DNA from: an uncultured Lachnospiraceae bacterium
Lineage (GTDB): Bacteria > Bacillota > Clostridia > Lachnospirales > Lachnospiraceae
Assembly: GCA_948444865.1 (NCBI GenBank)
Contig: CAOJVE010000010.1
Coordinates: 1 to 33,531, forward strand
Direction of reading: 5' to 3'
Length of the DNA stretch: 33,531 nucleotides
The notes beneath the pieces were generated by a model, which did not search any database, had not been told where the DNA came from, and saw only the letters and a program-made list of their open reading frames with translations. This document shows, piece after piece, positions 7,630 through 19,186 of the stretch (position 1 is its first letter; the number at the start of each line of letters is the position of its first letter). Both the position numbers and the translations under genes were made by a program.

Positions 7630-8090
7630 CTGGCATTTTTTATAGCTGTCACTTCTTCAATCGAAATTCCCGTAGCTTGAGCTATCACTTCCAGATCAGA
7701 AATTCCCATCCCTAACATACGGTGAATGGTATCTGCCTTTTCCTGTTCGATGCCTTGCAGTTTAGCTTCTTCCTGCTTCACTTCTATATCCTCTTCATAG
7801 CTATATTCAGCAACTAACATATTCCTCACCTCGCTGCCCTTACGTTTTAGATACTCTGCCAAGATTCCTTTTTCTATGCACGCATCTATCGCCTTTTTGA
7901 TAGGATTTTCTTCATCGGCATAAGCCCTCACTGCACAGATAAATTGGCTGTATTCTTTCAATATATCACACTTATCCAATATCTCATGTGATTTATCAGC
8001 ATTGATATTGATGACTGTCACTTTCAATTCCATGGAGTTGCTCCTGGGCGCAACCATAAACGCATCTGATAATGAAAGTTCCTTCTGTAC
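7626..8090 (-). pseudogene. Rpn-family (PD-(D/E)XK) nuclease/transposase, 3' remnant
   Basis: The frame encodes the C-terminal half of an Rpn/YhgA-like recombination-promoting nuclease: LSLSDAFMVAP, then ELKVTVININ, CDILKEYSQF, a Glu/Lys-rich linker and the final GISIEEVTAIKNAR. The N-terminal catalytic nuclease domain is missing. On its 5' side the sequence switches directly into xdh on the same strand, so the listed ATG at 8057 is not a true start. The base composition is more AT-rich than the flanking cluster genes, consistent with a mobile gene. It is a remnant without expected nuclease activity. Confidence 0.75.
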
Positions 8091-10017
8091 AGGATAATCT
8101 TGCTTTCCATCCGCTTCAGGTCGGTGTTTTCCACGGTCATCTGCACCAGAACTGTGCCCAGTCCCTGGCCGATGCAGGAGGCGCCGGAGCGGATGTGCAG
8201 CTTTCCATTCTCCACCGCCAGAATCGCCCGGCCGTAATCGGGGATGCCTACGCCCACGCCGGCGTTTTTCATGGCGCAGGCGATGCCCGCGCGGGGATGG
8301 TTTTCAAAGGTTTCTTTTACCGCTTCCAGAGTCTCGGCCAGTCCCGTGGACGCGTCCACAATCTGTCCGTTTGGCAGCTCCTGACCGGGGCGGATGGCGT
8401 TTCGCCAGCGGATTTCCCAGGGGCTGATTCCCACCTGCCCAGCCAGCTTGGTCAGCGTCATTTCCATGGCAAAACAGGTCTGGGTCACGCCGAAGCCGCG
8501 GAAAGCCCCCGCCGGCGGATTGTTGGTGTAATAGGCTTTGCCGTCAATCTCGAAGTTCTGGTAATTGTACGGCCCCGCCGCGTGGGTGCAGGCCCTCTCC
8601 AGCACCGGACCGCCAAGGGACGCGTAGGCGCCCGTGTCCGCGATCACCGTGGCTTTCACGCCCTGGATGATTCCGTTTTCGTCGCATCCCACGGTGAACT
8701 CCATGTCCATGGGATGGCGTTTGGGATGGATGAGAATACTCTCCTTGCGGGTCAGCTTCACCTTCACCGGCCGCCCGGACAGCCAGGCCGCCAGCGCCGC
8801 GTGGCGCTGCACCGTCATGTCCTCTTTGCCGCCAAATCCGCCGCCCACCAGCTTGTTGACCACCCGCACCTTTTCATTGGGAAGCCCCAGCATTTCGGCG
8901 CATTCGTGCTGGGTCGCGTAGGTTCCCTGTCTGTGGAGTAAATCAAAACGCCGTCCTCATAGGGCATGGCGATGGCGCACTCCAGCTCCAAAAAGGCGTG
9001 CTCCGTGTAGGGCGTGTGAAATTTCTCCGTGCAGACGTATTTTGCGTTGGCAATGGCTTTCTCGGCGTTCCCGCGGGACACATGCTTGTGGGCCAGAAGA
9101 TTTCCGCCGGGATGAAGCTTGGGCGCGTCTTCTTTCATAGACTCGTAAGGGCTGCTGACAAAGGGCATCTCTTCGTAGGAAACCTTCACCAGCTTCTTGG
9201 CCTTTTCCAGAATCTCCGGCGTTTCCGCCGCCACCAGCGCCACCGCGTCCCCCAGGTAGCGGGTGCATTCTCCCGCCGGAATCATCGTGTCCCAGTCCTG
9301 CACCAGATGGCCCACCTTCACATCCCCCGGAATGTCCGCCGCCGTGTAGACACCCACAACGCCGGGCAGCGCTTCGGCCTTCGTCCCGTCGATGGACAGA
9401 ACTTTGGCCCTGGGATATTTTGCGCGGATGGCGCTGGCGTAAATCATCCCTTCGATCTCCATGTCGTCCACATATTCGCCGTATCCTAACGTCTTTTCCC
9501 GGGCGTCAATCCGGTGCGCCCGCTCGCCCAGCTTCCAGCCGGATTCCTCCCGGGGAATCCCGTTTCCCTCCCGCTTCAGTTTCGCTGCCAGCTCCACCGC
9601 GTCCAGAATCTTCTTGTACCCGGTGCACCGGCAGATATTGTTCCGCAGCGCATAGGCAATCTCCTTTCGGGTGGGATTTTCGTTCTCGTCCAAAAGCCCT
9701 TTGGCGCAAATCACCATCCCCGGAATACAGAAACCGCACTGCACCGCGCCCGCATGGGCGAACGCATAGGCGTACAGCTCCTTCTCCTCCTGGGAAAATC
9801 CCTCCACCGTCAAAATATGCCGGCCATCCATGTCGGACAGCGTTGGGATACAGGCCTTCACGGCTTTCCCGTCCACTAACACATGGCACGCGCCGCAGGC
9901 GCCCTCGCTGCACCCGTCTTTTACCGACTTACACTTACAGACATCCCGCAGAAAAGGCAGCAGCTTTCCGTCTCCCTCGATCTGATAAAGCTGATGGTTC
10001 ACGCGCATCTCAATCAT
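8090..10017 (-). pseudogene. xdh: Xanthine dehydrogenase-type molybdenum hydroxylase, frameshifted and 3'-truncated
   Basis: This was a fused molybdenum hydroxylase of the selenium-dependent xanthine dehydrogenase group. Residues 1-150 carry two [2Fe-2S] sites (GCSEGACGACHV; CGFCIPGM with NICRCTGYKK). The molybdopterin domain follows (GGGFGGKED, AGAFRGFGVTQ). Two lesions are visible. Near 8928 one C is missing (GAC-AGG where GAC-CAG-GGA is expected), splitting the gene into two overlapping ORFs. At about 8090 the sequence stops matching after ENTDLKR and joins an Rpn remnant, losing roughly the last 200 residues of an expected 850. The start ATG at 10017 follows AGGGGGTG. It is almost certainly inactive. 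The fragment lies on the same strand as ssnA and ygfK. Confidence 0.88.
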
Positions 10018-11688: not shown

Positions 11689-11700
11689 TTTTACTCCTTT

Positions 11701-11793
11701 CGGTGATAAGAGGAAACCTCAGCACAGGAGGTAACAATGGTTCCTAAAGCGAGCGTAAAGAACCAAAATTCTTGCTGAAGCCCACTTATCGCC
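11701..11793. repeat. Nested inverted-repeat segment upstream of the Cys-rich gene
   Basis: The ends GGTGATAAG and CTTATCGCC are inverted copies with one mismatch. Between them lie two further small hairpins, ACCTC-7-GAGGT and GGTTC...GAACC. The segment could be a structured leader or a small palindromic insertion. No coding frame is evident. Confidence 0.4.
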
Positions 11794-11837
11794 TGCCGTT
11801 TAATCACGCATAATTCACACGCACAGGTTCATTCCAT

Positions 11838-11871
11838 AAAAAGAAATATTCGCTTCCCCGGTCAGGGGAAG
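11838..11871 (-). terminator. Terminator-like hairpin in the cobalamin leader
   Basis: On the minus strand CTTCCCC-TGA-CCGGGGAAG forms a GC-rich stem followed by CGAATATTTCTTTTT. It lies about 220 nt after the riboswitch core. It may be the expression platform or the end of a lost gene. Confidence 0.6.
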
Positions 11872-12090
11872 ACAGACGATGCATTTTACTTAATGAAAGT
11901 CTCCGTCCGGCGGCTGCAAAAACGCGCCCGCGCAGACGCTCTGACCCGTATAAACAAACAGGCCCATTTGGCCGGGCTGTAAATATGGGCGGCAGCCGAC
12001 TTTCCTGAATGACAATGCCTGCCTCGGCAGACACATTGGTTCGTTTTGTAAATGCTTAGATGTACACTTTTACACGGAAGCTTCACCTTA
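11872..12090 (-). other. Unassigned stretch between riboswitch and terminator
   Basis: This 219-nt stretch has a 48-codon frame (ATG 12036 to TAA 11890, [14 protein letters not shown]...) without a ribosome binding site, and two other open frames I do not recognise. It also contains small hairpins such as CTGCCGAGGCAG. It could be a decayed B12-regulated gene or a structured leader. No function is assigned. Confidence 0.35.
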
Positions 12091-12263
12091 CATACAAAGC
12101 AGGTTTCCTGACTCATGGATCCTGGCCCCGTCTGTCCTTCTCATATGCCTGGCATACAATGGATTTTGCAGACGACGCTCCCCAAATACAGTGACCGGAA
12201 CCGCTTAGGACTCTCACCTAATTCCCTCTTCATCCGCCCTGCTGCGCGGATGCACTTCGTATG
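12091..12263 (-). promoter_or_regulatory. Cobalamin (B12) riboswitch
   Basis: Read on the minus strand, the aptamer hallmarks are in order: GGGAATTAGGTGAGAGTCCT, then GCGGTTCCGGTCACTGT, and the 3' B12-box sequence GAGTCAGGAAACCTGC. Outer strands CATACGAA and TTTGTATG pair as P1. Adenosylcobalamin-type aptamers normally shut off corrinoid transport or synthesis genes. Its own consensus promoter lies just upstream. The nearest coding gene downstream is the cysteine-rich small domain protein. Confidence 0.93.
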
Positions 12264-12286
12264 TTCTCTGGAATTATACGCTACAT

Positions 12287-12315
12287 ATTATAACACATTC
12301 CCATAAATATGTCAA
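12287..12315 (-). promoter_or_regulatory. Promoter of the cobalamin riboswitch transcript
   Basis: TTGACA (12310-12315), a 17-bp spacer and TATAAT (12287-12292) on the minus strand form a perfect consensus sigma-A promoter. It would start transcription about 15-20 nt before the P1 stem. Confidence 0.85.
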
Positions 12316-12359
12316 ATAAAGATAAAATACAATGCCGTAAGTAGAAGTTCTCTAAAAAT

Positions 12360-12809
12360 TCAGGCAAAAAAGCCGGTCAGCGCGTCCAGGGTTTTTAAGA
12401 GCACGGCAAGCTCCCCCTCATCCAGCCGATCCAGAATGGCCTGCACCATCTGCCGATGATATTCCTCGTGATGCAGATAGGCTTTTCTGCCTTTTTCCGT
12501 CAGTCTGACAAATACCACCCGCCGGTCCTCTTTGCTTCTGCGCCGTTCCACATACTGCTTTTTCACCAGACTGTTCATGGCTGTGGTTAGGGAACCCACG
12601 GTTATTTTCAGTTCCCTGGCAATGGAAGACATATTTTTCCCTTCCCCCAGGCCCACCGCTTCTATTACGTGCATGTCGTTGTTGGTCAGGTCTTTGAATT
12701 CTTCCGTTATGATGGCCTTTCCTTCCTGGTCCCAGATTTCATGGATCAGGTTCACCAAAGCATGATTAATCTTTTTATATGCCTCTTCCACTGCTCTTTG
12801 CCCTTTCAT
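12360..12809 (-). CDS. fabT: MarR-family regulator of fatty-acid synthesis, FabT-like
   Basis: This 149-residue MarR protein has a winged helix with LTNNDMHVIEAVG, the recognition region ITVGSLTTAMNSLVKKQYVERRRS and the wing DRRVVFVRLTEKG. The sequence and its place at the end of a fab operon fit FabT, which with acyl-ACP represses fab genes in streptococci and relatives. The tracked start (12989) runs into the upstream gene in another frame; ATG 12809, 11 nt after the upstream stop, gives the normal family length. Being last, it would be made in proportion to the operon, and palindromes at the fabH promoter resemble the FabT box. No terminator is visible after it. Confidence 0.85.
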   Translation of the reverse strand: MKGQRAVEEAYKKINHALVNLIHEIWDQEGKAIITEEFKDLTNNDMHVIEAVGLGEGKNMSSIARELKITVGSLTTAMNSLVKKQYVERRRSKEDRRVVFVRLTEKGRKAYLHHEEYHRQMVQAILDRLDEGELAVLLKTLDALTGFFA

Positions 12810-12820
12810 TCCTGGTTCCC

Positions 12821-13888
12821 TTATGGCATAAAGGAGTTTATCACTTCTCGTACTGTTTCCATATGATCCGCCTCGCAGGCGTATGCGCCGCAGAATAAAA
12901 GCCCGTCCTCCACTTCGCCCCTGGCGGCATGAATCAGCGCCTCTGTGATGCAGTAAGGCGTCTGGGCGGGATTGCACGTCTCCAGGCATTTATGGCAGGG
13001 GCCGTGGGGAATTTTCTCCCCGGACATTACTTTTTCCATAAAAGGATTCATAATGGCCCTTCCCGGCATGCCCACCGGGCTTTTTACGATGGAAACCTGC
13101 TTTTGCGACGCATGCAGATACGCCTGTTTGTAACGGATATCCGCGTCGCATTCTTCTGTGGTCACAAACCTGGAGGCCACCTGAATCGCGTCCACCCCCA
13201 GGGAAAATGCGTGCGCCGCCTGCTCCCGGTTTTTGATTCCGCCGGCCAGCGCGGTGGGAATCCGGCATTGGCATGCGTCCTCATACTGGCGCACAACCGC
13301 CAGAATCTCCCCCACCTCCCGGTCGTAGTTCCCGGTCTGGACGGGCAGATATGCTTCCAGCTGTTCCCGGGTAAAGCCCAAGTGCCCGCCGGCCAGCGGC
13401 CCTTCGATGACCAGAAGGTCCGGCATCCGCTTATATTTTCTGTCCCAATATTTTAAAATCACTTTGGCCGACTTGGCGGTGGACACGATGGGGGCCAGTT
13501 TCGTCTTCGACCCCTCTGCGATTCTGGGAAGCCCTGTGGGAAGCCCCGCCCCGGAAATAATGATGTCCGCCCCGGTTTTCAGCGCGGCCTGCACATAGTC
13601 TTCGTAGTCCCGCGTGGCCACCATGATGTTGAATCCGATGATTCCCTCCGGCGCCAGGGCGCGGGCTTTGTCGTATTCTTTCTGAATCGCGCGAAGATTG
13701 GCCTCTTTTGTATTTCGGTCAAAATCCGGTTCCCGATAACCAATCTGGGCGGCAGAGATGATTCCTATGCCGCCTTCTTTCGCAACAGCCCCCGCAAGGC
13801 GGCCCAGGCTGATTCCTACGCCCATGCCGCCCTGTATAATCGGAAGCTTCACTTCTATATTCCCCATTTTCAATGGTTTTATCTGCAT
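12821..13888 (-). CDS. Nitronate monooxygenase / FabK-like FMN oxidoreductase with C-terminal cysteines
   Basis: This 355-residue TIM-barrel flavoprotein is of the 2-nitropropane dioxygenase/FabK family. It opens PIIQGGMGVGISLGRLAGAV and has FNIMVATRDYEDYV, VIEGPLAGGHLG and TALAGGIKNREQA, as expected for FMN binding. A C-terminal cysteine cluster (CHKCLETCNPAQTPYC, then FCGAYAC) is absent from the FabK upstream. ATG 13888 follows TAGGAGAAAAAT and lies 9 nt from accDA. It could be a second enoyl-ACP reductase, a nitronate oxidase, or an unrelated NAD(P)H:flavin oxidoreductase. Operon membership favours a lipid role but does not prove it. Confidence 0.8.
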   Translation of the reverse strand: MQIKPLKMGNIEVKLPIIQGGMGVGISLGRLAGAVAKEGGIGIISAAQIGYREPDFDRNTKEANLRAIQKEYDKARALAPEGIIGFNIMVATRDYEDYVQAALKTGADIIISGAGLPTGLPRIAEGSKTKLAPIVSTAKSAKVILKYWDRKYKRMPDLLVIEGPLAGGHLGFTREQLEAYLPVQTGNYDREVGEILAVVRQYEDACQCRIPTALAGGIKNREQAAHAFSLGVDAIQVASRFVTTEECDADIRYKQAYLHASQKQVSIVKSPVGMPGRAIMNPFMEKVMSGEKIPHGPCHKCLETCNPAQTPYCITEALIHAARGEVEDGLLFCGAYACEADHMETVREVINSFMP

Positions 13889-13897
13889 ATTTTTCTC

Positions 13898-15604
13898 CTA
13901 CATTTTCCGGAAACGCTGGTATCTGCGCCGGGCCAGCTCTTCCCCGTCCAACCCTGCGTACTGCTCCAGAAATTCTTCGATCCAGTTTCCCAGCGGCTCT
14001 GTCACCGCCCGGATGTTCTGCGCTGTAAATTCTTCCGGCTCAGCCAGCACCCGCTCCACCACGCCCATGGCATAGAGATCCCCAGCCGTAAGCTTCATCA
14101 CTTCCGCCGCCTCCTTGGCCTTCGCGCTGTCTTTCCACAGGATGCTGGCGAATCCTTCCGGCGACAGAATGGAGTAAATGGAGTTTTCCAGCATCCAAAC
14201 CTCGTCCGCCGTGGCCATGGCAAGGGCGCCGCCGCTGCCCCCTTCCCCGATTACGATGGAAAGTATGGGCGTTTTCAGGGCCGACATTTCGTAAAGGTTC
14301 CTGGCGATGGCCTCTCCCTGCCCCCGCTCTTCCGCCTCCACGCCGCAGAACGCTCCCGGCGTGTCCACCAGGCAGATCACCGGCCGGTGAAATTTCTCCG
14401 CCTGCTTCATCAGGCGCAGGGCCTTTCGGTATCCGTCCGGGGATGGCATCCCGAAATTGCAGCGGATGTTTTCCTTGGTGTCCCGGCCTTTTTCCTGGGC
14501 GATGACCGTCACCGGCATTCCCCGGAAGCTGGCAATGCCTCCGACGATGGCCTGGTCGTCGCCAAAATACCGGTCCCCATGAAGCTCTGTGAAATCTGTA
14601 AAAAGCGCCTGAATGTAATCCTTCCCCACCGGACGGTCCTTTTTCCTGGAGGCCTGCACCCGATCCCAGGCTTTGGCCTTATCCATCCCCGCGGGAATCT
14701 TCAGGCACGGCCGGGATTTCTCCTCATCCCCGAAGCCTGCCGGCGTTTTGGCGTTGTGAAGCCTTAAAAGACGGCCGAGCGTTTCCTTCATCTGCGGCCG
14801 CTCCACAATGCCGTCGATGAAACCGTGTTCCAGGAGAAATTCAGACCGCTGAAAGCCTTTGGGCAGTTTTTGCCCGATGGTCTGCCCGATGACTCTCGGC
14901 CCGGCAAATCCAATCAGCGCTTTCGGCTCCGCCAGGATAACGTCCCCCAGCATGGCAAAGCTGGCCGTGACGCCCCCGGTGGTGGGGTCGGTCAGCACGG
15001 TGATATAGAAAAGTCCGGCGTCGCTGTGCCTTTTTAACGCCGCGGCGGTCTTCGCCATCTGCATCAGAGAAACGATTCCTTCCTGCATCCGGGCGCCGCC
15101 GGAACAGGTGAAAATGATAAGGGGCAGTCCCTCCTCGGTGGCCCGCTCCACAGCCCGGGTGATTTTCTCCCCCACCGCTTCTCCCATGCTGGCCATGAGA
15201 AAACGCCCGTCACAGACCGCCAAAACGGCTTCCGTCCCTTCAATGCGCGCTTTTCCTGTGGTTACTGCCTCGTCAAGCCCTGTCTTTTCCTGAAGGGCGG
15301 CCAGCTTTTCTTCGTATCCCTTGAACTGAAGGGGATTCCTTGTGGAAAGCCCCCGGTCCCATTCCTCAAATGTGCCTTCATCCGCCACCGACTCTATGCG
15401 CCGGTACGCATGCATCCGGAAATAGCCGCCGCATTTGGGACAGATATAATTTCCTTTTTTTGCGTCCTCCGCAATGATGGCCGCTTTGCACATGTTGCAT
15501 TTGCGCAAAAGGCCTTCTGGCACTTCCGGACGGGCAGCGTCCGCGGCCCCCGGATTTTTTCTCTTTGGCAGTCTGGTTTTCTTAAACACATTGTCTAGCT
15601 TCAT
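13898..15604 (-). CDS. accDA: Fused acetyl-CoA carboxylase carboxyltransferase (beta-alpha)
   Basis: This 568-residue single chain joins AccD and AccA, which transfer the carboxyl group from biotin to acetyl-CoA to give malonyl-CoA. Residues 36-58 hold the four-cysteine zinc ribbon (CNMC...CPKC) of the beta subunit. The beta crotonase core follows ([21 protein letters not shown]). From about residue 300 the alpha part begins ([51 protein letters not shown]). Normally these are two genes of about 290 and 320 residues. The N-terminal helical region of a free AccA appears short. The start overlaps the accC stop by ATGA, so translation is coupled. Confidence 0.95.
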
Positions 15605-16950
15605 ACCATATCACCCTGCATTTTCTCGATAAATTCAATGTCAATGTTGCCGGACAGGTAGTCCGGGTGATTCAAGATCTCGTATTGATAGTCCACATTG
15701 GTGTCAATCCCCTCGATGATGACTTCGCCCAGCGCGCTCTGCATCTTATGGATGGCCTCACTGCGGTTCTTGGCCCACACGATCAGCTTCGCCACCATGG
15801 AGTCGTAGTAAGGCGGGATGGAATAGCCGCTGTAGATGGCGGAATCAATGCGGATGCCTTTGCCGCCCGGCAGATACATATCCGTTATCGTTCCGGGGGA
15901 CGGCCGGAAGTTCTGGCTTGGATTCTCAGCGTTGATGCGGCACTCGATGGCGTGGCCGGTCAGGCGCACATCCTTTTGGCTGTAGGAAAGCTTTTTGCCG
16001 GAGGCGATGCGGATCTGCTCTTTTACCAGGTCGATGCCCGTCACCCACTCCGTGACCGGATGCTCCACCTGGATACGGGTGTTCATTTCCATGAAATAAT
16101 ATTTCCCCGAAGGCTCCAGGAGGAACTCGATGGTTCCCGCGTTGACGTATCCCGCCGCGCGCGCCGCCCGGACCGCCGCCTGCCCCATCTCTTCCCGCAG
16201 CTTGGCTGTCAGCGCAAGGGACGGGGATTCTTCTATCATCTTCTGATGGTTTCTCTGGATGGAACAGTCCCGCTCTCCCAGGTGAATCACGTTGCCGAAG
16301 CCGTCCGCCAGAATCTGAAATTCAATGTGCCGGGGATGCTGGACGAAATGCTCGATGTACATAGTTCCGTCCCCGAAGGCTTTTTGGGCCTCTTTTTGGG
16401 CCGTCTGGAAGCTCTGCTCAAATTCCTCTTCGGCATAGGCTGTGCGCATCCCTTTTCCGCCGCCGCCCAGCGCCGCTTTTACGATCACAGGATAGCCGAT
16501 CTCTCTGGCCGCCTTTAAGCCCGTCTGCGCGTCGTAAATGGCCTCCTTTGTGCCCGGAATCACCGGAACGCCCGCCGCCGCCATGGTATTTCTGGCTTCC
16601 TGCTTGTTTCCCAGCCGGGCGATGACCTCCGCGTCCGGCCCGATAAACGTAATGTTGCACTGCTGGCAAAGCTCTGCAAAGCGGCTGTTTTCCGACAGAA
16701 ATCCAAACCCCGGATGGATGGCGTCCGCCCCTGTGACCACCGTAGCGCTGATGATGCTTTCCATGTTCAGGTAACTGTCCTGTGAAGGCGCAGGCCCGAT
16801 GCAGATCGCCTCGTCCGCCAGCTTCGCGTGAAGCGCCTCTTTGTCCGCCTGGGAATAGACCGCCACCGTCTCGATTCCCATTTCCCTGCACGCGCGGATA
16901 ATCCGCACCGCAATCTCTCCCCTGTTGGCTATCAATACTTTCTTGATCAT
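15601..16950 (-). CDS. accC: Biotin carboxylase subunit of acetyl-CoA carboxylase
   Basis: This 449-residue ATP-grasp enzyme carboxylates the biotin on AccB using ATP and bicarbonate. It starts with [20 protein letters not shown] and has the ATP loop [12 protein letters not shown], the HPRHIEFQI segment and the catalytic [15 protein letters not shown] motif. Length is typical. ATG 16950 follows AAGGTGG. It sits between fabZ (30 nt gap) and accDA (4-nt overlap), keeping all carboxylase subunits in one transcript. Confidence 0.97.
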
Positions 16951-16980
16951 CTTACCACCTTATCCAATCCATACCGTCGC

Positions 16981-17409
16981 TTAGCCCACCATAAATGTCA
17001 GTTCCGCGCTGACGATGACTTTTCCGTCCACGCTGGCCGTGGCCTCGCCCACGCCCACAGGGCCTTTTTGCTTAATGATTTTCGTCTCCAGGCGCAGTTT
17101 GTCTCCGGGGACCGCTTTTCCCCTGAATTTGCATTTGTTGATGCCGCCGAAATAGGCCACTTTTCCTTTGTTTTCCTCCTGGCTTAAGATGGCCACCGCT
17201 CCGGCCTGCGCCAGCGCCTCCACGGTCAGCACGCCCGGCATCACCGGCTCCTGGGGAAAATGCCCCGCGAAGAAATCCTCCCGGTAGGTCAGGCATTTAT
17301 AGCCCACCGCATACTGTCCCGGCTCATAATCCTCAATGTAGTCCAGCAAAAGAAACGGATGCCGGTGGGGAATGATTTCTTTAATCTGGTTAATGTCTAA
17401 ATGTTTCAT
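16981..17409 (-). CDS. fabZ: 3-hydroxyacyl-ACP dehydratase FabZ
   Basis: This 142-residue hot-dog protein dehydrates beta-hydroxyacyl-ACP in the elongation cycle. The catalytic histidine lies in IPHRHPFLLLD (His17) and the glutamate in PGVLTVEALAQAG (Glu64); the GHFPQEPVMPG loop is present. ATG 17409 follows TAGGAGGCAGT. The gene lies between accB (8 nt gap) and accC. No FabN/FabA-type isomerase is seen in this operon, so how unsaturated chains are made is not shown. Confidence 0.96.
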   Translation of the reverse strand: MKHLDINQIKEIIPHRHPFLLLDYIEDYEPGQYAVGYKCLTYREDFFAGHFPQEPVMPGVLTVEALAQAGAVAILSQEENKGKVAYFGGINKCKFRGKAVPGDKLRLETKIIKQKGPVGVGEATASVDGKVIVSAELTFMVG

Positions 17410-17417
17410 ACTGCCTC

Positions 17418-17855
17418 CTACTCAATCCTGAACAGTTCCTGCCCGTACTCCACGGCCTGCCCGTTGGAAACATAGATTTCCGCCACGGTCCCGTCGTAAT
17501 CGCTCTCAATTTCGTTCATCAGCTTCATGGCCTCCACAATGGCCAGGGTCTGGCCCTTGGTCACTTTATCCCCCACAGACACAAAGGGCTCTGCGTCCTC
17601 CGCCGGGGCCGCGTAAAAGGTTCCCACCAGCGGGGATTCCACAATCTTTCCGCCTGGAGCGGGGGCAGGCGCCGCCGTCTGCGCCTCGGATGTCTTCGCG
17701 GGCGCCGTTTCCGCCATCTCTGTCACCGGCGCCGCCTTCGTCTGCCCCTGTTTTTTGGTCAGATGCAGCTTTACGCCGCCCTCTTCGTATTTCAGCCCGG
17801 TCAGTTCGGACCTAGACACCGCTTCAATCAACCGAATCAGATTTTCAAATTCCAT
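17418..17855 (-). CDS. accB: Biotin carboxyl carrier protein
   Basis: This 145-residue carrier holds the biotin of acetyl-CoA carboxylase. Residues 1-35 form the N-terminal segment, 36-70 an Ala/Pro/Thr-rich flexible linker, and 72-145 the biotinyl domain with the target lysine in VEAMKLMNEI (Lys111). Length and layout match the family. The start ATG 17855 follows AGAGGGTG. It lies 14 nt downstream of fabF. Confidence 0.96.
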   Translation of the reverse strand: MEFENLIRLIEAVSRSELTGLKYEEGGVKLHLTKKQGQTKAAPVTEMAETAPAKTSEAQTAAPAPAPGGKIVESPLVGTFYAAPAEDAEPFVSVGDKVTKGQTLAIVEAMKLMNEIESDYDGTVAEIYVSNGQAVEYGQELFRIE

Positions 17856-17869
17856 ATGACAAACACCCT

Positions 17870-19120
17870 CTAGTCTATATATTTTTTCAAAAGCAAGGTT
17901 GCGTTGTGACCGCCGAAGCCAAGAGAATTGGTCAGCGCGCAGCGGATTTCTTTTTCAATAGGCGCGCCCACGGCATAATTCAGGTCGCATTCTTCGTCCA
18001 CGTTTTGGGTTCCCATGGTCTGATGGACGAAGCCGTCCTGGATGGCTTTCACGCAGGCGATAAATTCCACGCCTCCGGCGGCGCCCAGAAGGTGGCCAAT
18101 CATGGATTTGGTGGAGTTCACCGCCGTTTTATGCGCCGCGTCGCCCAACGCCAGCTTAATGGCTTTTGTCTCGAAGAGATCGTTGTGGTGGGTTCCGGTG
18201 CCGTGGGCGTTCACATAGTCCACTTGCTCCGGGGAAATCCCGCCTTCCTTCATGGCAAGCTCCATGGCTTTCGCGGCGCCGCTGCCGTCTTCCGCTGGGG
18301 AAGTGATATGATAGGCGTCTCCGGTGGCCCCGTAGCCCGCCAGCTCCGCGTAAATTTTCGCGCCCCGCGCCCGGGCGTGCTCCAGCTCTTCCAGCACGAC
18401 GACTCCGGCGCCCTCGCCCAGCACAAATCCGTCTCGGTCTTTGTCAAAGGGGATGGAGGCCCGCAGAGGGTCTGAAGCGGTGGAAAGGGCGGTCAGGCTG
18501 GTGAACCCCGCCACGCCCAGCGGACAGATGCAGCTTTCCGCCCCTCCGGCGAACATCACGTCCGCGTCCCCGTACTGGATGGCGCGAAACGCGTCGCCGA
18601 TGGAATGGGTCCCGGAGGCGCAGGCCGTCACCACATTGGTGCATTTTCCTTTTAAGCCCAGCTGAATGGAAATATTCCCCGCCGCCATGTTGGAAATCAT
18701 CAGCGGCACCATCAGAGGATTTACCCGGGCCGGGCCTTTGGTCTGAATCCGCTCGTATTCCCGCTCCGTCTCCCGCAGGCTTCCGATGCCGGAGCCCACA
18801 ATCACGCCGGCGCGGTAGGGATCTTCCTTTGAAATGTCAAGGGCAGCATCCTCGCAGGCTTCTTTGGCCGCCGCCACCGCAAACTGGGCGAAAGGCTCCA
18901 TCCTTTTTGCCGCCTTAAAGTCCATCCTCTCTTTTGCCGAAAAGCCTTTCACTTCCGCGGCCAGCTTCACTTTGTAATCCGCCGTGTCAAACTGGGTGAT
19001 TTCCCCGATTCCCACTTTTCCGGCTTTTATGCTGTCCCAGAATTCCGGCACGGTATTGCCGATGGGCGTGATGGCGCCCATTCCGGTGATTACTACTCTT
19101 TTCTTTCTTACATTGTCCAT
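17870..19120 (-). CDS. fabF: 3-oxoacyl-ACP synthase II FabF
   Basis: This 416-residue condensing enzyme extends acyl-ACP with malonyl-ACP. The thiolase-fold triad is visible: Cys167 in TACASGTHS, His306 in NAHGTGTHHND and His343 in MIGHLLGAAGG, with Lys338 nearby. The tracked start at 19156 is rejected because the AGGAGG site lies within that extension. ATG 19120 (MDNVRKKRVVITGMG) gives the family N-terminus, though the 13-nt spacing is long. The 66-nt gap to fabG contains a small GC hairpin (CCGCG/CGCGG at about 19161-19177), which might tune the level of downstream genes. Confidence 0.96.
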   Translation of the reverse strand: MDNVRKKRVVITGMGAITPIGNTVPEFWDSIKAGKVGIGEITQFDTADYKVKLAAEVKGFSAKERMDFKAAKRMEPFAQFAVAAAKEACEDAALDISKEDPYRAGVIVGSGIGSLRETEREYERIQTKGPARVNPLMVPLMISNMAAGNISIQLGLKGKCTNVVTACASGTHSIGDAFRAIQYGDADVMFAGGAESCICPLGVAGFTSLTALSTASDPLRASIPFDKDRDGFVLGEGAGVVVLEELEHARARGAKIYAELAGYGATGDAYHITSPAEDGSGAAKAMELAMKEGGISPEQVDYVNAHGTGTHHNDLFETKAIKLALGDAAHKTAVNSTKSMIGHLLGAAGGVEFIACVKAIQDGFVHQTMGTQNVDEECDLNYAVGAPIEKEIRCALTNSLGFGGHNATLLLKKYID

Positions 19121-19186
19121 CTTTCTTTTTCTTCCTCCTATATCAGACCAACGCACATTCCCGCGCCCCGTGCGCGGTTCTGCCGT

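Follow-up and report, generated by a model that had tools for sequence, protein, structure and literature searches.

Riboswitches that control non-coding RNAs (ncRNAs) are rare; known examples are EutX of Enterococcus faecalis and Rli55 of Listeria, where an AdoCbl riboswitch controls an ncRNA that sequesters EutV. Switching off with B12 is the usual direction for the cobalamin riboswitch class, and small RNAs with C-rich loops are known in Firmicutes. In Blautia, an AdoCbl/T box Val tandem has been reported whose spacer is long and in which no promoter was seen (PMC9481103). In this study we analysed a stretch of 33,531 nucleotides from an uncultured Lachnospiraceae bacterium (contig CAOJVE010000010.1 of assembly GCA_948444865.1; hereafter the window), in which a cobalamin aptamer precedes a conserved structured RNA and a gene for a cysteine-rich small domain (PF04071) protein. 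EutX and Rli55 are the closest to this locus in logic, as a cobalamin aptamer acts through termination on a downstream ncRNA and not on a protein gene, which is what we propose here. However, the conserved RNA has a different structure, with a predicted 5'-end pseudoknot, and in two genera it also forms the leader of PF04071. The aptamer belongs to Rfam family RF00174 as an ordinary member of full length, whereas the sequence after the first terminator lies outside the family.

The elements of the locus follow each other on the minus strand in the order promoter, aptamer, long leader, terminator-like hairpin, nested inverted repeats, Shine-Dalgarno (SD) sequence and PF04071 gene (Table 1). The preliminary description of this DNA had recognised a full B12 aptamer under a perfect sigma-A promoter, followed by a leader with a terminator hairpin, nested inverted repeats and the cysteine-rich gene, and all of these were recovered. 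The aptamer core is full-length and its score lies far above the RF00174 gathering score of 31.5 bits, which predicts a corrinoid sensor; it is the sole Rfam match within the window. The hairpin directly following it, CUUCCGUGUAAAAG, we take to be P13 from established knowledge of the riboswitch class. About 390 nt separate the aptamer from the PF04071 gene, approximately 210 nt of which lie ahead of the terminator-like hairpin. The genome contains three further cobalamin aptamers, and neither the conserved RNA element nor the 5' motif described below was found with these other three riboswitches. A phage record from human faeces (MT835545.1, 19744-19876) showed 72% identity to 22% of the query 11700-12300, and the matching query positions 71-203 fall inside the aptamer. 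The region directly upstream of the aptamer (12360..19156 of the minus strand) encodes a MarR/FabT-like regulator and a series of fatty-acid synthesis proteins (FabK-like, AccA/AccD fusion, AccC, FabZ, BCCP and FabF). Elsewhere on the same strand (8024..10017), one xanthine-dehydrogenase-like protein is spread over two overlapping ORFs, the first with [2Fe-2S], Ald_Xan_dh_C and the beginning of MoCoBD_1 (7-84) and the second with MoCoBD_1 78-244; the splitting of this domain suggests a frameshift near 8815-8893.

Table 1. Positions of the predicted features of the locus in the window, in the order of transcription.
Feature	Position	Strand	Basis or remark
Sigma-A promoter TTGACA-17-TATAAT, extended -10 (TG)	12315..12287	-	12/12 consensus match
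Predicted transcript 5' end GUAUAAUUCC	12279..12270	-	Complementary to loop 11808-11816 and AUGGAAU 11831-11837
Cobalamin riboswitch aptamer	12274..12081	-	RF00174, 97.6 bits, E 2e-23, full model 1-189
P13-like hairpin CUUCCGUGUAAAAG 3' of the aptamer	12080..12067	-	Kept in congeners
Insertion of ~160 nt private to this genome	12049..11887	-	Alignment with congeners
Terminator 1, hairpin and U-rich tail	11871..11838	-	Position homologous to terminator 1 in relatives
Conserved RNA core (AUGGAAU + P1' hairpin CCUG/CAGG with loop GAAUUAUGC + GAUUAAACGG)	11837..11792	-	Models R1/R2
P2/P3 arm (nested inverted repeats)	11790..11705	-	Fold and covariation of homologous helices
SD sequence AAAGGAG, directly 3' of P2	11694-11700	-	Serves the PF04071 gene
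PF04071 (cysteine-rich small domain) protein, 92 aa	11688..11410	-	Pfam zf-like, 101 bits, above cut-off

The unusual length of the leader is explained in part by the private insertion, and the rest contains a conserved structured RNA. The insertion occupies the loop of a GCAUUU..AAAUGC hairpin that is short in the congeners; it folds on itself into nested hairpins (z -3.0) and holds two additional terminator-like sites. A repeated mobile element was ruled out, as the insertion is present in a single copy in the genome. The hairpin of terminator 1 reads CTTCCCC-TGA-CCGGGGAAG (11871..11853), with the U-rich tail ending at 11838. Because of a gap of 5-10 nt before the U run, this terminator seems weaker than those of the relatives, most of which have a complete terminator 1 already 5' of the conserved RNA.

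In the alignment with the congeners, all sequence 3' of terminator 1 is conserved. Its core has the consensus AUGGAAU..CCUG..GAAUUAURC..GAUUAAAYGGCAGG, from which the models R1 and R2 were built; the core of the window scored 75.8 and 58.4 bits, respectively, and searches with these models, whose E-values are rough, found it in the congeners, in a Blautia-like genus (locus L062 is from Blautia wexlerae) and in further genera. The RNA matched no family of Rfam 15 in the window at E up to 5, that of two relatives gave chance matches only, and the loci of relatives scanned at Rfam gathering scores yielded Cobalamin and one T-box and nothing else, which ruled out a leader of a known Rfam family. 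A conserved leader peptide (MIKWQA..) was likewise ruled out, since the start codon, the frame length and the loop length all vary. The unpaired bases are conserved as in aptamers, GAUUAAAYGG is strongly conserved, and in some loci an extra hairpin is inserted within the P1' loop with the flanking bases unchanged.

Downstream of the core, the nested repeats of the window (GATAAG..CTTATC around GGTTC..GAACC, 11790..11705) fold only modestly better than shuffled sequences when taken alone (z -1.8). The compensatory changes in the homologous stems of relatives nevertheless place the P2/P3 arm above chance: among 22 Blautia-like and related sequences, nine pairs had changed on both sides and 96.7% of cells were paired, while none of 500 shuffles was as good and slid partners paired in 25-47% of cells. 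The arm usually exposes a strongly conserved C-rich loop, CCUCCGC. In the window the P3 loop is degenerate, with UUUACGCUCGC in place of CUCCGC, and the terminator that follows the RNA in some relatives (terminator 2) is missing. Taken together, an undescribed RNA family, supported by covariance and absent from Rfam 15, is well supported by these comparisons.

The P1' loop GAAUUAURC is complementary to the 5' end of the transcript, GUAUAAUUC, and so is the AUGGAAU after the terminator. Across about 75 loci GTATAATTCC is almost invariant 5' of the aptamer, and the deviations of the P1' loop mostly retain G-U pairs. In two genera a one-nucleotide insertion has been gained jointly on both strands of the pairing, giving the long-type pairs GTATAAATTCC/GAATTTATGC and GTATGAATTCC/GAATTTATAC as against the short-type GTATAATTCC/GAATTATAC. 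In genus g137 (L196, L204) the 5' end is GUAUAAAUUCC and the P1' loop GAAUUUAUGC; in L201 of genus g273 they are GUAUGAAUUCC and GAAUUUAUAC. The cognate long-type duplexes have predicted energies of -11 to -17 kcal/mol, whereas swaps with the short type mostly reach -6 to -10. The parallel gain of one nucleotide on either strand, together with the advantage of the cognates over the swaps, argues for a long-range pairing of the 5' end, although both long types may descend from a single ancestor. In seven loci of genus g29 a decoy, GAATTTATA, lies 5' of the genuine GAATTATGC. A search with just the 5'-end pattern recovered the same genomes and two chance matches; the search beyond the family used this one narrow pattern within the order, and it is too specific to judge the wider distribution.

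The family search covered 397 genomes of the family under strict filters, and the distribution of the RNA is therefore a lower bound. Of the 64 Blautia-like genomes 47 had the core, as did 14 of the 20 genomes of genus g29 (15 loci); many of the six g29 and 17 Blautia-like genomes without a detectable copy are incomplete, and many genomes in the comparison are metagenome assemblies. All strong copies examined with enough upstream sequence stand behind a cobalamin aptamer. PF04071 follows the RNA in 44 of the 47 Blautia-like loci, but within the locus in none of the 15 of g29, where PF04071 is encoded at another site in 19 of the 20 genomes and has no B12 box close to it; in the single-contig g29 genomes G501 and G504, RNA and gene lie 0.8-1.3 Mb apart. 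In this genus a strict terminator 2 ends the RNA in at least seven of the 15 loci (shuffle expectation ~0). In L158-L162 and L165, the first downstream ORF with 80 aa or more in the mechanical ORF list, which is not an annotation, runs in the opposite direction. At least 14 of the 47 Blautia-like loci also have terminator 2, and none of those in the window's genus does. An aptamer 5' of a putative ncRNA that has no protein gene of its own was seen in g29, g137 and g140, while the RNA of the window is followed by a protein gene. In g137 a terminator comes after the RNA, and the ORF beyond it has a promoter-like site of its own; in g273 (L201) the RNA is separated from valS, a gene named from its sequence in the comparison loci, by terminator 2 and a distinct promoter-like site. 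The order in L194 of genus g168 (1018-1850) is cobalamin aptamer, conserved RNA, separate promoter (11/12), T-box and valS. A reduced copy in genus g27 (L213) is placed immediately 5' of an ORF that looks like cbiD, in the manner of an ordinary leader. Behind the free-standing RNA of L157, a stretch resembles a second, shortened cobalamin aptamer, with a score below the Rfam gathering cut-off.

The PF04071 gene of the window is the only one in its genome. In the congeners L035, L036 and L037 the protein is 83-90% identical, the aptamer lies upstream in all three and the distance from the B12 box to the PF04071 start is 200-271 nt; no PF04071 match was found in the fourth genome of the genus, which is 61% complete. 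Ten positions (C20, C25, H26, C36, C39, C41, C50, C64, C67 and H71) are invariant in 36 sequences. The structure was predicted with middling confidence (pLDDT 76) and comparison of the model with the PDB found no relative, so no function could be derived from the fold; a limited literature search on PF04071/COG2158 found no papers on the family. In other genomes PF04071 is fused to DBI_PRT (CobT-type) or TP_methylase domains, and CbiC, CobS, CobQ/CbiA-type GATase_3, TP_methylase and CbiM recur among 63 ORFs adjoining or overlapping it in about 35 loci, which bears out the tie between this protein family and corrinoids that had been raised earlier as one of two possibilities. In L020 PF04071 is joined to a fumarase-type domain, which has no part in corrinoid metabolism, and the PF04071 matches of L034 and L027 each contain one in-frame stop (TGA in G041 and TAA in G073).

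The reading that we favour, with a probability of roughly 0.6, is a B12-repressed structured ncRNA that in this genome doubles as the leader of PF04071. A single transcript would start at the cobalamin aptamer. When corrinoid is plentiful, the aptamer would favour termination at terminator 1, a direction that we assume here because it is usual for the class; when corrinoid is scarce, the polymerase would read through and the conserved RNA would be made. The P1' hairpin would then present GAAUUAURC to the first nucleotides of the transcript, tying up the 5' end in a pseudoknot, and the P2/P3 branched arm would in most copies expose its CCUCCGC loop. In several genera of Lachnospiraceae the RNA would stand alone as a B12-repressed ncRNA, whereas in the window's genus it would run into the ribosome-binding site of PF04071 and be both RNA and leader. 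As far as comparison of sequences reaches, the aptamer, the conserved structure, the 5'-end complementarity, the linkage to the aptamer and the existence of copies with no shared cis gene are all shown by it, and the structure of the RNA and its B12 linkage are well supported. The conserved RNA is presumably stable, and the copies that have no cis gene suggest an action in trans. Like the loops of the C-rich-loop small RNAs of Firmicutes, the CCUCCGC loop is exposed and complementary to SD sequences, on which it perhaps acts in trans; this is a resemblance only and a candidate contact. A role in trans is least certain in the window's genome, as its P3 loop is degenerate and terminator 2 is absent. 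An extension in which a trans-acting B12-repressed RNA of gut Lachnospiraceae, with its 5'-end pseudoknot, has the PF04071 protein as partner (e.g., in an RNA-protein complex adjusting corrinoid metabolism) is speculative and, in our judgement, rather improbable.

The conserved element could also sense a second input, as an orphan aptamer or a site bound by a protein, forming a tandem with the cobalamin riboswitch and controlling PF04071 through terminator 2 or the ribosome-binding site, with the free-standing copies being derived. We consider such a two-input arrangement unlikely but worth serious attention, and it is the main rival because terminator 2 can sit immediately before the gene: in the Blautia-like locus L173 the PF04071 start codon lies about 30 nt behind it, so that terminator 2 may be read through or regulated there, which fits the two-input arrangement equally well. 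The presence of PF04071 downstream in 44/47 Blautia-like loci and 4/4 of the window's genus, the abutment of P2 on the SD sequence in the window and the aptamer-like conservation of unpaired bases point the same way. However, the core is retained in g29, g137, g273 and g168 although these genera have no downstream gene in common, terminator 2 does not by eye overlap P2, leaving no obvious antiterminator, and no second validated aptamer class was found for a tandem riboswitch, the element being without an Rfam match.

The preliminary description offered two simpler alternatives, an unusually long expression platform through which PF04071 is regulated by B12 or the deletion of the original target. 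The latter, in which PF04071 would be a chance neighbour of a relic, has hardly any probability left: nothing was found in its favour, and the same aptamer-PF04071 order in three congeners and across 44/47 Blautia-like loci, together with the corrinoid genes fused to or beside PF04071, excludes a deleted target. The comparison with relatives having the same aptamer, which had been proposed as a check, thus revealed a retained gene order in both groups. As for the platform, PF04071 is indeed the conserved neighbour of the aptamer (3/3 congeners, 44/47 Blautia-like loci) and its family is linked to corrinoids, but the leader is more than a platform, about 160 nt being a private insertion and the remainder containing an RNA found in other genera with no PF04071 downstream. 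In addition, most relatives have a complete terminator 1 already before the element, and we therefore give little credence to an ordinary riboswitch with nothing but a long platform. It is equally doubtful that the element is a stability module with no target in trans, in which pairing of the 5' terminus shields the read-through transcript from 5'-end decay. The conserved 5'-end pairing with its coordinated change would suit this function, but the strongly conserved CCUCCGC loop and GAUUAAAYGG, as well as the copies behind which there is no gene to be protected, would be left unexplained.

Returning to the B12-repressed structured ncRNA, it would belong to a known kind, riboswitch-controlled ncRNAs, built here on an undescribed RNA family. 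ANTAR dual hairpins are defined by hexaloops with A1 and G4 (PMC3369931), and such pairs turned up in two of the 47 Blautia-like loci, against a chance expectation of 1.9, and in none of the 15 of g29, no group exceeding its shuffles. The RNA thus does not have the ANTAR hairpins of the EutX/Rli55 type. L194 resembles the AdoCbl/T box Val tandem (PMC9481103) in having a cobalamin aptamer, a long spacer, a T-box and valS, but the conserved RNA makes up its spacer and the T-box has a separate promoter (11/12) in front of it, on account of which the aptamer with its RNA and the T-box are probably independent units. Matched by arrangement, L194 suggests that the published tandem loci also hold the conserved RNA and an independent T-box unit. 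If our reading is true, it would add another riboswitch-controlled ncRNA, structurally unrelated to EutX and Rli55, in Blautia and related gut bacteria, where corrinoid supply matters; it would connect PF04071, an uncharacterised family, with corrinoid biology and offer a testable explanation for the published AdoCbl/T-box-Val tandem.
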